The notes under the pieces were generated by a model that was not told the origin of the DNA, ran no database searches, and saw only the letters and a program-made list of their open reading frames with translations. Below, piece by piece: positions 19,922-25,776 of a DNA stretch of 64,000 nt. The stretch comes from Fabrea salina (taxonomy: Eukaryota; Ciliophora; Heterotrichea; Heterotrichida; Fabreidae). A program made the translations under genes and the position numbers. The stretch is from assembly GCA_022984795.1 (NCBI GenBank), contig JALIHJ010000040.1, positions 62,001 through 126,000 of the forward strand. The letters run 5' to 3'. Within the stretch, counting starts at the first letter, position 1. Each line of letters opens with the position of its first letter.

Positions 19922-20995
19922 TTAATACTTAGACTTCTTGTAAGCTTCGTATTTTTCTTGAAGTTTCTTTTTGAAGTCTTCAACTTGTTGTAGGTTGCAA
20001 ACACTTCCTTGCAAATCAAGCACAAACTCAGAAAGAGACTCCCTCAACAAGTTGTAGCCTTGGGCAATCTCGAGCTGGGTTTCATGGGGCATGTTGCTGA
20101 GCTCACTGAAAACTTCTTCTTCTTCAGGGTCTTCTTCTTCTTGTTCTTCTTCAAATATTTTTTCAGCTTCAGCTTCGAGTTCTTCCAAAAGGGTCCGGTT
20201 GTCTAGTTTCTGGATGATTTCGAACTCTTTTGGAAAAAATTCTTCACAAGAACTGCACTTGCACCTTTCGTCCAGCCAAGTGAGCTTTACAAAAACGTGG
20301 TAAGGAAACTTAGGAAACTCAGAAGTTTTCACAGGGCACTCGTCTACCCGGTTTCTTTTAGGGGGTTCTTCAGCGTAGATGTACTCTTTGTAGGCACTAG
20401 GGATATATAGCCAGTTCTGTAGGCACTTTTCACACACAAAAAAGAACTCTTCTAGATTTTCAAGGGGAACTTGGGGAATAGTTGTTTGATGGAACTCTTT
20501 GTCAGCTAAGTTGTGGGAGTTGTTTGCACTTTGCACACAAGTAGAGTGAAACCAGTCTTGGCACCCCACACACATAAACATTTCGCTTTCTCTAGTTTCG
20601 TCGCTGTCTTCAGAGTCGCAGATGCAAAACTTTCCTTTGAAGTTGTGTGAGTAAGAGTTATCGGGATTCTCAAGCGGCTTTTGGGAGTTTAAGGTGCACT
20701 TGTTGGACATTCTGGAGTTTCCGCAGTCACAAACTAGGTTAGTTTTAGGACCTAGTTCTACTACTTCGTGGTCTAAGTGGCACTGCAAGTAACATCCTAA
20801 GCACACTCCTGAACCTTCTGGGCAGGTGTTGCACGTTCTGCATAAAAACACTTCTTGAACTACTGGGTCTTTTGAGAAGCTACAAGTTTTGCCTTCTTCA
20901 CGTGAGTTTATCAGTTCCCGCGCTCTTTGTGCTACTTTTTCCCGCTTTTTTGAGATCTGAGTCCACCCTGATAAAAGGTTAAGTTCTTTGTCCAT
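19922..20995 (-). CDS. UBR7: UBR7-type UBR-box and PHD-finger protein
   Basis: The 357-residue product has a UBR box at about 38-100 (TCSFSKDPVVQEVF, CRTCNTCPEGSGVCLGCYLQCH, CDCGNSRM) and an atypical PHD finger at about 123-195 (FCICDSEDSDE, MFMCVGCQDWFHSTCVQ, FVCEKC). This pair in this order is diagnostic of UBR7/Mlo2, an E3 ubiquitin ligase reported for histone H2B. An acidic Glu-rich stretch (about 270-300) and a short helical tail complete it. Length is close to the family (about 425 in human). Its start is 24 bp from the divergent acyltransferase gene, and its 3' neighbour begins after 1 bp. Confidence 0.93.
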   Translation of the reverse strand: MDKELNLLSGWTQISKKREKVAQRARELINSREEGKTCSFSKDPVVQEVFLCRTCNTCPEGSGVCLGCYLQCHLDHEVVELGPKTNLVCDCGNSRMSNKCTLNSQKPLENPDNSYSHNFKGKFCICDSEDSDETRESEMFMCVGCQDWFHSTCVQSANNSHNLADKEFHQTTIPQVPLENLEEFFFVCEKCLQNWLYIPSAYKEYIYAEEPPKRNRVDECPVKTSEFPKFPYHVFVKLTWLDERCKCSSCEEFFPKEFEIIQKLDNRTLLEELEAEAEKIFEEEQEEEDPEEEEVFSELSNMPHETQLEIAQGYNLLRESLSEFVLDLQGSVCNLQQVEDFKKKLQEKYEAYKKSKY

Positions 20996-22832: not shown

Positions 22833-24164
22833 TTACTTAAGGTCTGTAATATCTTCAATTTTGGGTTTGAACTGAGTTGCTTCTGAAGGCTGCTTCTTAG
22901 TCACTTGCTCAGCTAAGACCGCGCATATTTGCTTGTGTTTTTTCCAAGCTTCTACTTGGCACTTTCTTGAGCAGTACCACTCAGAGTGGCACTTACTGCA
23001 TCTGTTGGTAGCTGGGACTCCGCAGTTTGCACAAGTGGGGTCTTCTAGCATGTCGTCTAAGCCAGTCATGAGTAAGTCCATCATTCTTTTTCTGGACTCT
23101 TCAGTTTCTACTAAGTAGTTTTGTCTTTGATGTTCAGCAATCTCTTGCCAGTTTCTGTTTAGACAAATGTTGTTGGCTAACTCAGGCATTTGCTGTATTA
23201 GAAAAGCTGAAATCTTGCTGGTGGAACCTTCATTCATGATGCTCATTTCTTCCAAGGCCCTTAACAAGTTGCCTAGCACAGGGATCTGGTCTATAACTGT
23301 TTCGTTCAAAAACTTTCTGAGTCTCAAAAGGTTGTTTTTTCTGTAAGAAGTTAGTTCGTACTTGCTTCTTACGTCTTGGTTCATAAACAGGTTGTAAACA
23401 GTAAGCCAAATCTGTGCTTCTACTTTAGGAACCTTTGCAGAGTCCCTTAGTTTGAGCCACTGTTGGTTTTCGTATATGAGTTTTCCGTTTTTGGTGTCTT
23501 TGATCCAAGGCTTGGTTTCCATAAGAGGCACTAGCACACAAAAGATATCGCATTGTTCAATGAGCTGTTGCACAACAGCTAGTGTAAGTCCTTCCAAGTG
23601 GTCTGTTATGAACCTTACAATGGACAAGCAACTAATTCCCATTCCAAACTCTAACTCTTTAAGTTGGCACTGGAGTTCCTTACTTCTAGAGAGTTCTGAA
23701 GTTAAGGTTTCTTCGTGCTCGAAAGAGTTCAAACTAACTAGTTTGGAGTAAGCCCACCCTATCAAGTCCACCAGTAAGTCCCCTGCCTCTTCACAAGCTG
23801 TTCTGTGGTACAAAAGAACTTCTAAGAAGTTGGAAACCATTGCCTCATGGTAAACCAGCATGTAAGACCGAGCACTGTTGAGACTGCACACTGCTTCCTG
23901 CACAAGGGGCAAAACGTTTTGCTTCCAGACTTGCGAAGTTATTAAGTCGTGGATAAGTACCTTTACTTTGTCCCAAGTAACCATAAGATCCAACACAAAC
24001 TCGTCTTCCCTTGCTCTTGCGTTTCTGTGGGACTGCAAGTTAAGTTTGTATATGGCTTCGTGTTGTCTGTCCCAAGCACTGCTTGCGTACTGCTTGATGT
24101 CTATTTCTTGCAGACTCTGAACTAAGTGGTCTGCTTCAAAGTGCGTTATGACGTCTCCTTCCAT
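22833..24164 (-). CDS. ZMYND10: ZMYND10 dynein-arm assembly factor
   Basis: The 443-residue product matches human ZMYND10 (440 aa) over its length: an armadillo-like helical body (WDRQHEAIYKLNLQ, VYHEAMVSNFLEVLLYH, IWLTVYNLFMNQDVRSKYELT, QIPVLGNLLRALEEM) and a C-terminal MYND zinc finger (CANCGVPATNRCSKC, WYCSRKCQVEAWKKHKQIC). It works in the cytoplasm with HSP90/FKBP8 to fold axonemal dynein heavy chains before they enter cilia; loss causes primary ciliary dyskinesia in humans. It sits 13 bp downstream of the RING-PCMT fusion gene's 3' end on the same strand. Confidence 0.96.
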   Translation of the reverse strand: MEGDVITHFEADHLVQSLQEIDIKQYASSAWDRQHEAIYKLNLQSHRNARAREDEFVLDLMVTWDKVKVLIHDLITSQVWKQNVLPLVQEAVCSLNSARSYMLVYHEAMVSNFLEVLLYHRTACEEAGDLLVDLIGWAYSKLVSLNSFEHEETLTSELSRSKELQCQLKELEFGMGISCLSIVRFITDHLEGLTLAVVQQLIEQCDIFCVLVPLMETKPWIKDTKNGKLIYENQQWLKLRDSAKVPKVEAQIWLTVYNLFMNQDVRSKYELTSYRKNNLLRLRKFLNETVIDQIPVLGNLLRALEEMSIMNEGSTSKISAFLIQQMPELANNICLNRNWQEIAEHQRQNYLVETEESRKRMMDLLMTGLDDMLEDPTCANCGVPATNRCSKCHSEWYCSRKCQVEAWKKHKQICAVLAEQVTKKQPSEATQFKPKIEDITDLK

Positions 24165-24177
24165 AGTATATTAGTTA

Positions 24178-25776
24178 TTAAGGGCACTGTCTAGCTCTAT
24201 CGGTTAAAGGAGCGTAGCTTACACTCATGAGTCGGTTGTATTCGAGAGTCCCGTTGTCGTTCTTCTTTACAATAGTAATTTGCTGGCTGTGCTGAATGTG
24301 GCCTACTGGAGCCATAAGGATTCCTCCTACTTTTAATTGCTCAACTAAAGGAGCTGGAATCTCTGGCGTAGCTGCTCCAATGTGGATCACGTCAAAGGGC
24401 CCGTAGTCCTCCAAGCCCAGTCGACCGTCCCTGCAAATCATTCGCAGTTCCAAGTCGGGCTTCTGAATAAGGTGTAGATTGTTTTTCCTGATGTTGTCAA
24501 CAGCTTGGTTGATTAGTTCTTCAATATGGTCAACTCCATAGACTTTGCCCCTGCCTATCATTTTGGCCAAACACACTGTTAAGTAGCCACTTCCGCATCC
24601 AATATCCAGAACAGACTGCCCTGGACGTAAGTACTCTTCTAAAAAGCAAAGAGTCATAGCGTGCATATGAGGAGCTGACACTGTAGTGTTGAACCCTATT
24701 CTTTGGGGTCTGTCTTCGTAAGCGTGGCTCTCTGAAGGCACAAAGTCTTTTCTGTCTATTGACATAAGTACTTCTTTGATTCGTTCTGACATAGCAATTC
24801 CGCTTCTGACGAGTTCTTCGACCAGCCTTACTTGCTGGGGGTTGTTTTCGGTGGTGTGAAACACAGGCACGTCTCCAGGGGTCCACTCTACTAGTTTTTC
24901 GAGTTGCTTTTGCTGGGGTTCTAGTGAGTTGATGGACTCCAAAACATAGGAGGTGTCTATTGAAACTGGAAGTTCTAAACTAGCAGCTTCTTGTTCTAGT
25001 GACTGGATCATTCCGTCCTTAGTTTCTTCTTCTGGGAGTTCGCTGAGGCGCTGCACCATGCCTACTCTTTCAGGACCTGCTACCCAGTTGACCTGTCTTT
25101 GAGTGTTTTCAATTTCCGATATGATTTTTTGTCGTTTTTGGATAACATCATCGCACTCCTCAACGTGGCTTTGGACGTTTTTGATGAGCTGGTTGCAGGG
25201 TTCGTTCAAACTCATGATGAATTCTTCGCGTTTTTTGTTCAGAGCTTTTACAAGGGGTTCAAAAGCATTGTTAACTTGTTCTTTAGCAGCTTTGAGTTTG
25301 TCTTCAACTACTCCAAAGACCCCGATGACTCTTTCTCTTTGAGTTTGTGAGTTCTCAAGCATCCTTTCAGCCTTTCTGAAGAGTTCTTCAAGTTGCTTGT
25401 CGGTGCCTTGGGTTATAACGGGGTCGTCTAGGTCGTAGAAGTCGTGGGTTTTGTGCTTGGTGACGCACTTAGAACAGAAAGGGCAATTGCAAGTAAGACA
25501 AAAGAACTGGGACTCTACTCTGGAGTGCTGGGGACACGGAGCTATTAGTTTGGGCTTTTCAGCTCCTACTTGTTGAAGCACCAGTATGTTTTTTTTCATT
25601 TGGGAAACTTCTCGGTAGTCCCTGCCCCGACAATGCGGGCAGTTCAAAGCTCCCATACGACGCTCCATAGAGTTAATGCAGTTCTGACAAAAAGTGTGTC
25701 CACAAGACAGAACTAGTGGTACATTTTCTTCGCTGTTAAAAGTGTGAAAGCACACCGGACACTGTAAGGTTTCCAT
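24178..25776 (-). CDS. RING/B-box/coiled-coil fused to protein-L-isoaspartate O-methyltransferase
   Basis: One unbroken 532-residue frame joins two normally separate proteins. Residues 6-49 are a C3HC4 RING finger (C6, C9, C25, H27, C30, C33, C46, C49). Residues 81-111 are a B-box type 2 zinc finger (CPQH, CLTC, CSKC, HKTH). Residues about 125-295 are a coiled coil, giving the TRIM order of E3 ligases. Residues 312-530 are an apparently intact PCMT: TVSAPHMHA (365-373, substrate loop), VLDIGCGSGYLT (389-400, SAM motif I), DHIEEL, FDVIHIGAA, LKVGGILMAPVG and the C-terminal YAPLTD. PCMT repairs isoaspartyl damage in aged proteins. The expected role is to couple damage recognition to ubiquitin tagging, which is inference. 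Confidence 0.93.
   Translation of the reverse strand: METLQCPVCFHTFNSEENVPLVLSCGHTFCQNCINSMERRMGALNCPHCRGRDYREVSQMKKNILVLQQVGAEKPKLIAPCPQHSRVESQFFCLTCNCPFCSKCVTKHKTHDFYDLDDPVITQGTDKQLEELFRKAERMLENSQTQRERVIGVFGVVEDKLKAAKEQVNNAFEPLVKALNKKREEFIMSLNEPCNQLIKNVQSHVEECDDVIQKRQKIISEIENTQRQVNWVAGPERVGMVQRLSELPEEETKDGMIQSLEQEAASLELPVSIDTSYVLESINSLEPQQKQLEKLVEWTPGDVPVFHTTENNPQQVRLVEELVRSGIAMSERIKEVLMSIDRKDFVPSESHAYEDRPQRIGFNTTVSAPHMHAMTLCFLEEYLRPGQSVLDIGCGSGYLTVCLAKMIGRGKVYGVDHIEELINQAVDNIRKNNLHLIQKPDLELRMICRDGRLGLEDYGPFDVIHIGAATPEIPAPLVEQLKVGGILMAPVGHIQHSQQITIVKKNDNGTLEYNRLMSVSYAPLTDRARQCP

Follow-up and report, generated by a model that had tools for sequence, protein, structure and literature searches.

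A predicted Fabrea salina protein with a TRIM-type N-terminal half and a C-terminal PCMT1-type methyltransferase domain

A single frame carries RING, B-box and PCMT domains

We analyzed a 64,000-nt stretch of Fabrea salina DNA (the window) in which a minus-strand gene at 24178–25776 combines a RING finger, a B-box, a probable coiled coil and a PCMT domain. The gene is a single 532-codon frame that runs from ATG to TAA, and the plus strand across the same interval has many stops. The original prediction had described such a 532-codon frame with these four parts; both frame and parts are borne out, the strand, which the prediction left unstated, is the minus strand, and the predicted domain borders are correct to within a few residues as judged by Pfam, zinc-ligand spacing and AlphaFold2. 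A Pfam search of the whole 532-residue protein matched RING, B-box and PCMT profiles, with at least one model per domain exceeding its curated cut-off, and the E-values exclude chance as the source of these matches. The features are:

24178–25776, minus strand: whole RING-B-box-coiled coil-PCMT gene, 532 residues (frame reading and Pfam)
25630–25761, minus strand: RING finger, residues 6–49, C3HC4 spacing (zinc-ligand spacing and Pfam)
25444–25536, minus strand: B-box zinc finger, residues 81–111 (zinc-ligand spacing and Pfam)
24892–25401, minus strand: helical, probably coiled-coil region, residues 126–295 (AlphaFold model, moderate to low confidence)
24838–24891, minus strand: linker and join, residues 296–313 (no stop, no Met between codons 256 and 329, coding score kept, low pLDDT at 292–308)
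24193–24831, minus strand: PCMT domain, residues 316–528 (Pfam, TIGR00080, motifs and fold)

The surrounding window is filled with closely packed frames. Forty ATG-initiated frames of at least 100 codons (overlap below 20%) occupy 93% of its 64,000 nt, gaps within the 21 adjacent same-strand pairs range from 0 to 295 bp (20 bp or less in nine pairs), and stop codons are standard, with TAA ending 35 of the 40 frames. A MYND-finger protein gene on the same strand (22833–24164, minus) begins 13 bp past the stop of the fused gene, a cyclin-like frame ends 165 bp upstream of it and CEP76 lies two genes upstream. Such extreme compaction, together with the standard stops and CEP76, fits the heterotrich Fabrea salina, whose genome is called 'extremely streamlined' in the title of its paper. 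About 3.2 kb downstream of the fused gene, at 19922–20995 of the window (minus strand), is a second ubiquitin-linked gene, which encodes a UBR-box protein, presumably UBR7-like, with a weak PHD match.

The join lies upstream of a complete PCMT domain

Because closely spaced neighbors are frequent in so compact a genome, the join was put to the test. Two adjoining genes could have been joined by an assembly error, or an intron or stop could have gone unseen, and the spacing of only 0–15 bp between neighboring genes in places lends this reading some support. So do low coding scores within parts of the gene: the 30-codon segments 1–30, 76–105, 91–120, 361–390 and 376–405, which belong to the RING, the B-box and the region that binds SAM, score below 0.068 (the 5th percentile of the genes). 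Strong profile matches in these stretches nevertheless indicate that they are coding. At the join itself the coding score is unbroken, at 0.37, 0.53 and 0.47 for codons 271–300, 286–315 and 301–330, respectively, against a mean of 0.38 for the other genes of the window. No in-frame stop codon is present at the join, nor is there a Met between codons 256 and 329; a separate PCMT gene would thus have to start without an ATG at the domain border.

The residues that precede the domain, NPQQVRLVEEL, resemble the NPKQARLVDEL that leads a stand-alone paralogue in the same genome (L002), which places the join upstream of a full PCMT. We also scanned for short introns, taken as GTA...AG stretches of 15–18, 21 and 24 nt. 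Those of likely intron size closest to the join are 16 nt long, at codons 316 and 336, and removing them would frameshift the PCMT domain; two stretches of 15 nt, at codons 70 and 238, are in frame and are possible introns, and the fusion stays whole even if they are removed. The missing stop and Met, the continuing coding score and the intron scan thus make a two-gene or intron artefact highly improbable, and the open frame and the properties of the join support the original view of a natural single-frame fusion between a TRIM-like N-terminus and PCMT.

The N-terminal half resembles TRIM E3 ligases

RING models match residues 5–50 (PF13445, 41.3 bits against a cut-off of 25.2) and a B-box model matches residues 80–113 (29.9 bits against 24.1). 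All eight RING zinc ligands (C6, C9, C25, H27, C30, C33, C46 and C49) and all eight B-box ligands (C81, H84, C93, C96, C101, C104, H108 and H111) are present with the usual spacing. The last RING ligand is directly followed by Arg, at what we take to be the usual linchpin site. AlphaFold2 predicts helices at residues 126–245, 250–266 and 275–295 with moderate to low confidence (block pLDDT 41–77), and on this model a coiled coil probably follows the B-box; the RING and B-box themselves, which no alignment row spans, are predicted at low confidence. The TRIM coiled-coil family (TRIM_CC) does not appear among the matches listed, which comprise 25 of 45 Pfam families.

The best solved relatives of this half are TRIM3 (aligning to residues 4–236) and TRIM32 (2–70), E3 ligases in which RING, B-box and coiled coil precede a C-terminal module. 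The same order is found here – a RING with its zinc ligands, then a B-box, then a predicted coiled coil – but the fused protein ends in PCMT. TRIM proteins usually carry SPRY, NHL or other modules at this end, and a TRIM that ends in PCMT is not known to us. The tree built from the TRIM halves is weak and picks out no nearest paralogue.

The C-terminal half is a PCMT1-type domain

The PCMT half matches Pfam PF01135 at residues 316–528 (224.6 bits against a cut-off of 20.3; E 1.5e-66) and passes the NCBIfam PIMT equivalog model TIGR00080 (196.1 against 159.05 bits), while falling below the cut-offs of two more PIMT equivalog models (NF001453, 160 against 188 bits; NF010549, 156 against 282 bits). 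It shares a complete domain with PCMT1/PIMT (EC 2.1.1.77) and its best solved relative is human PCMT1 (E 3.7e-51), to which 88 of 210 aligned residues are identical. The human enzyme is a free protein (solved chain of 226 residues), whereas here the domain makes up the C-terminal 217 of 532 residues. The SAM motifs and PCMT-specific motifs are kept:

residues 366–373: VSAPHMHA
residues 390–399: LDIGCGSGYL
residues 414–421: GVDHIEEL
residues 462–469: DVIHIGAA
residues 481–492: LKVGGILMAPVG
residues 520–526: SYAPLTD

We compared the domain with seven further PCMTs: those of human and fly, two more solved structures and three paralogues from its own genome. Among the 31 columns in which these seven agree, the fused domain matches 28, the changes being V333I, I366V and E377C, the last of which places Cys where all seven have Glu; when the seven are left out in turn, they keep between 28/28 and 28/33 invariant columns. 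The fused domain likewise keeps 21 of 23 columns that are invariant in 18 viral PCMTs.

These viral sequences come from two alignment-based searches of viral contigs, which gave 6 relatives among 132 matches and 89 among 296 (80 kept), all relatives of the PCMT part, and they served solely as rows for the fold and the tree. From the 80 kept loci 35 were tried and 20 passed length and redundancy filters; one of these was dropped for ambiguous letters (L095) and three by eye for their close likeness to kept rows (L071, L091 and L092), and the remaining 16 together with L060 and L061 formed the fold alignment. Built on these 18 rows, the AlphaFold2 model has blocks above 90 pLDDT across residues 311–520 except for 431–440 (68) and 491–500 (84), with 69 for 521–530 (whole protein, mean pLDDT 69.7, pTM 0.48). 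Foldseek ranks 1i1n, 1kr5 and 1r18 at the top (target-normalized TM 0.89, 0.91 and 0.87), with PCMTD1 17th (0.65); the top match is human PCMT1. Structure prediction, which the original prediction had proposed for each domain as a check, yields a confident PCMT1-like fold for the PCMT half but low confidence for RING and B-box and moderate or lower confidence for the coiled coil.

In a 15-row tree, 4o29 and 2yxe (both solved structures) and five viral rows form a 100/99 group to which the fused domain does not belong; the tree does not fix its order relative to the PCMTs of human, fly, 2pbf and its own genome. Its branch length of 0.57 compares with 0.45 for human, 0.68 for fly, 0.35, 0.76 and 1.19 for the stand-alone paralogues L002, L001 and L004, and 5.36 for the PCMT-like L005; so short a branch is as expected of a constrained enzyme. 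The earlier impression of a catalytically intact methyltransferase agrees with the retained invariant columns and the PCMT1-like fold, and this half looks like a PCMT1-type isoaspartyl methyltransferase with predicted catalysis.

The domain differs from PCMTD1 and PCMTD2

The original prediction had set the fusion apart from vertebrate PCMTD1/2, in which a PCMT fold is also joined to ubiquitin ligation, there with CUL5 and elongin BC. In PMC7859441 and PMC10798966, the PCMT-like domain of PCMTD1/2 is described as about 25% identical to PCMT1. PCMTD1 is reported there and in PMC11514484 to bind SAM, CUL5 and elongins without detected isoaspartyl methylation, and PCMTD2 is reported as a CUL5 substrate receptor (PMC10798966). 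The prediction's account of the SOCS-box/CUL5 link and of the missing PCMTD1 activity agrees with PMC10798966. The SOCS box of PCMTD1/2 recruits a separate cullin-RING ligase, whereas the protein described here has a RING in the same chain and a PCMT1-like PCMT. It matches PCMTD1 at an E-value of 1.8e-11, far behind PCMT1 in sequence as in fold rank, and it stops four residues past the PCMT match and lacks a SOCS box behind that fold.

A PCMTD-like identity had been suggested by the LKVGGIL...APL tail and was ruled out. The C-terminal 70 residues match PCMT1 at 4.9e-12 and PCMTD1 at 0.13, and the last SAM motif, GGIL here and GGRL in human, is GGIL in E. coli Pcm too.

The reports on PCMTD1 and PCMTD2 make it conceivable that the fused PCMT is a SAM-dependent receptor without useful catalysis, which would present substrates that are not necessarily isoaspartyl, as proposed for PCMTD1/2 in CRL5 (PMC10798966 and PMC11514484). 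Since the fused domain is PCMT1-like, and unlike PCMTD1, in sequence, motifs and fold, such a receptor fits less well and we regard it as quite unlikely.

RING and B-box fronts carry many C-terminal partners

We surveyed the genome (18.33 Mb in 103 contigs) for relatives of both halves. A PCMT profile gives eight matches, all above cut-off, four of them strong (179–232 bits). Besides the fused protein, the strong matches are stand-alone frames of 217–249 residues, two of the three passing TIGR00080. One of these paralogues (L002:1480–2226, minus strand) has an N-terminal hydrophobic stretch that may serve as a signal or anchor. Of the 48 matches returned with the fused protein as query, one is the protein itself, 43 fall on residues 1–263 and four lie on the PCMT part. 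A B-box profile gave 38.

We assigned loci to 20 of the 48 matches and to 30 of the 38, several being the same genes, and Pfam-scanned 34 distinct RING/B-box-type frames (E 0.01 or 0.001), leaving out L044 and matches without a locus. At these scan thresholds, where some matches lie below the curated cut-off, both RING and B-box are matched in 19 frames, RING alone in 4, B-box alone in 10 and neither domain in the scanned part of 1; the last, L058, has a B-box upstream of its chosen ATG. Six frames (L021, L023, L033, L043, L054 and L056) overrun the fetched DNA, so that modules may be missed in them. The C-terminal modules found are:

Kelch, eight frames: L016, L017, L019, L024, L026, L031, L033 and L051
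PHR, three frames: L013, L021 and L023
fn3, two frames: L043 and L047
LRR: L032 above cut-off, L030 below
one frame each: MATH (L035), MORN (L025), OHA (L056), EF-hand (L057) and NADAR (L058)

RING/B-box fronts are thus joined to many modules in this genome, among which PCMT is one more C-terminal partner, and by its position in the sequence it occupies the place that a recognition module takes in TRIM proteins. The original prediction had presented the fusion as an independent joining of damage recognition and ubiquitin tagging. The fusion itself stands, but in a genome that keeps three stand-alone PCMTs and has many other partners of RING/B-box fronts it is one more such combination.

The survey also bears on whether ubiquitin transfer is the role of the TRIM half, which might instead merely dimerize the repair enzyme or position it, for example on a scaffold or organelle. 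No C-terminal module above the Pfam cut-off is found in 14 of the 34 frames, as might suit this idea, and the E3 activity of the fused protein is a prediction. The complete set of RING ligands and the Arg at the usual linchpin position argue otherwise, and we consider a purely structural TRIM half decidedly improbable.

Relatives in other collections and in the literature

Searched with the fused protein, viral contigs gave no relatives among 18 pattern matches. In a plasmid collection, none of 346 matching records covers 80% of the query. The PCMT part found one relative among 50 matches to genome contigs of a prokaryote collection, a short bacterial match. No RING-PCMT protein is among the papers listed by searches of an open-licence library, which is weak negative evidence, and a relative of the fusion may already be described or annotated in eukaryotic protein databases. 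Judged from its sequence, we regard the fusion as real and unusual; its enzyme looks intact, and there is a conceptual precedent for it.

A possible link between isoaspartyl repair and ubiquitination

Proteins acquire isoaspartyl damage spontaneously, and the known response is repair by PCMT. To our knowledge, how a cell chooses between repair and degradation of isoaspartyl proteins is not settled. The best-supported reading, to which we give about even odds (roughly 0.5), is that this single gene encodes a TRIM-type RING E3 whose intact-looking PCMT1-type methyltransferase takes the C-terminal substrate-recognition position and recognizes isoaspartyl proteins. Sequence and model show the one open frame, the zinc-ligand patterns, the long predicted helices after the B-box and the full PCMT fold and motifs. 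PMC10798966 provides a precedent by analogy, in that PCMTD2 as a CUL5 substrate receptor would place a PCMT fold in ubiquitin ligation.

The architecture suggests that one protein could repair or tag damaged proteins. The coiled coil would dimerize the protein, the RING would recruit E2~ubiquitin and the PCMT domain would bind proteins bearing L-isoaspartyl residues. Bound proteins would be methylated, which amounts to repair, and those bound repeatedly or for long would receive ubiquitin from the RING of that dimer. Against this reading, the three stand-alone PCMTs, two of them above the TIGR00080 cut-off, could perform ordinary repair, leaving the fused PCMT free to change role. We propose only tentatively that the protein is such a one-chain 'repair or destroy' enzyme, which methylates isoaspartyl proteins and ubiquitinates those left unrepaired through its attached TRIM RING. 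Also counting against the main reading, to repair a substrate and to degrade it seem opposite ends, and there is no visible rule for choosing between them.

PCMT might instead regulate the E3. By methylating deamidated Asn/Asp within its own dimer's coiled coil, or within that of a partner TRIM, it would switch off oligomerization and ubiquitination. This is the strongest rival because PIMT is reported in PMC10112892 to bind TRAF6, to methylate N350 in the TRAF6 coiled coil and to inhibit TRAF6 oligomerization and autoubiquitination. In that case a PCMT acts on a RING coiled-coil E3 as two proteins in trans, whereas here both are fused in one chain. The methyltransferase appears intact, and NS pairs at 142 and 283 and a DG pair at 254 lie in or beside the coiled-coil region of the fused protein; such deamidation-prone pairs are, however, probably frequent by chance. 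PCMT moreover fills the slot held by binding modules in the paralogues, which favors substrate recognition, and regulation through the coiled coil seems unlikely to us.

A TRIM-type E3 with PCMT in the recognition position would suggest that an enzyme fold can act as a TRIM recognition module. The human PCMTD1/2–CUL5 link hints at ubiquitin involvement in isoaspartyl damage, though PCMTD1 has no detected isoaspartyl activity in the papers cited above. With a RING and an intact-looking PCMT1-type domain in one protein, the question of repair versus degradation would become directly testable in vitro. If the repair-or-destroy proposal is true, the enzyme would give proteins that have aged spontaneously a degradation pathway of their own.

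Other RING and B-box fusions in the genome

Several of the surveyed frames have further features. Two RING proteins whose frames are covered in part have repeated PHR matches (three in L021, two in L023), and L056 combines an OHA (OST-HTH associated) domain with two B-boxes. Another odd B-box fusion is L058 (871–2022, minus strand), in which the B-box lies upstream of the NADAR match in one frame; its scanned part has no RING match, and NADAR is a second enzyme-like partner.
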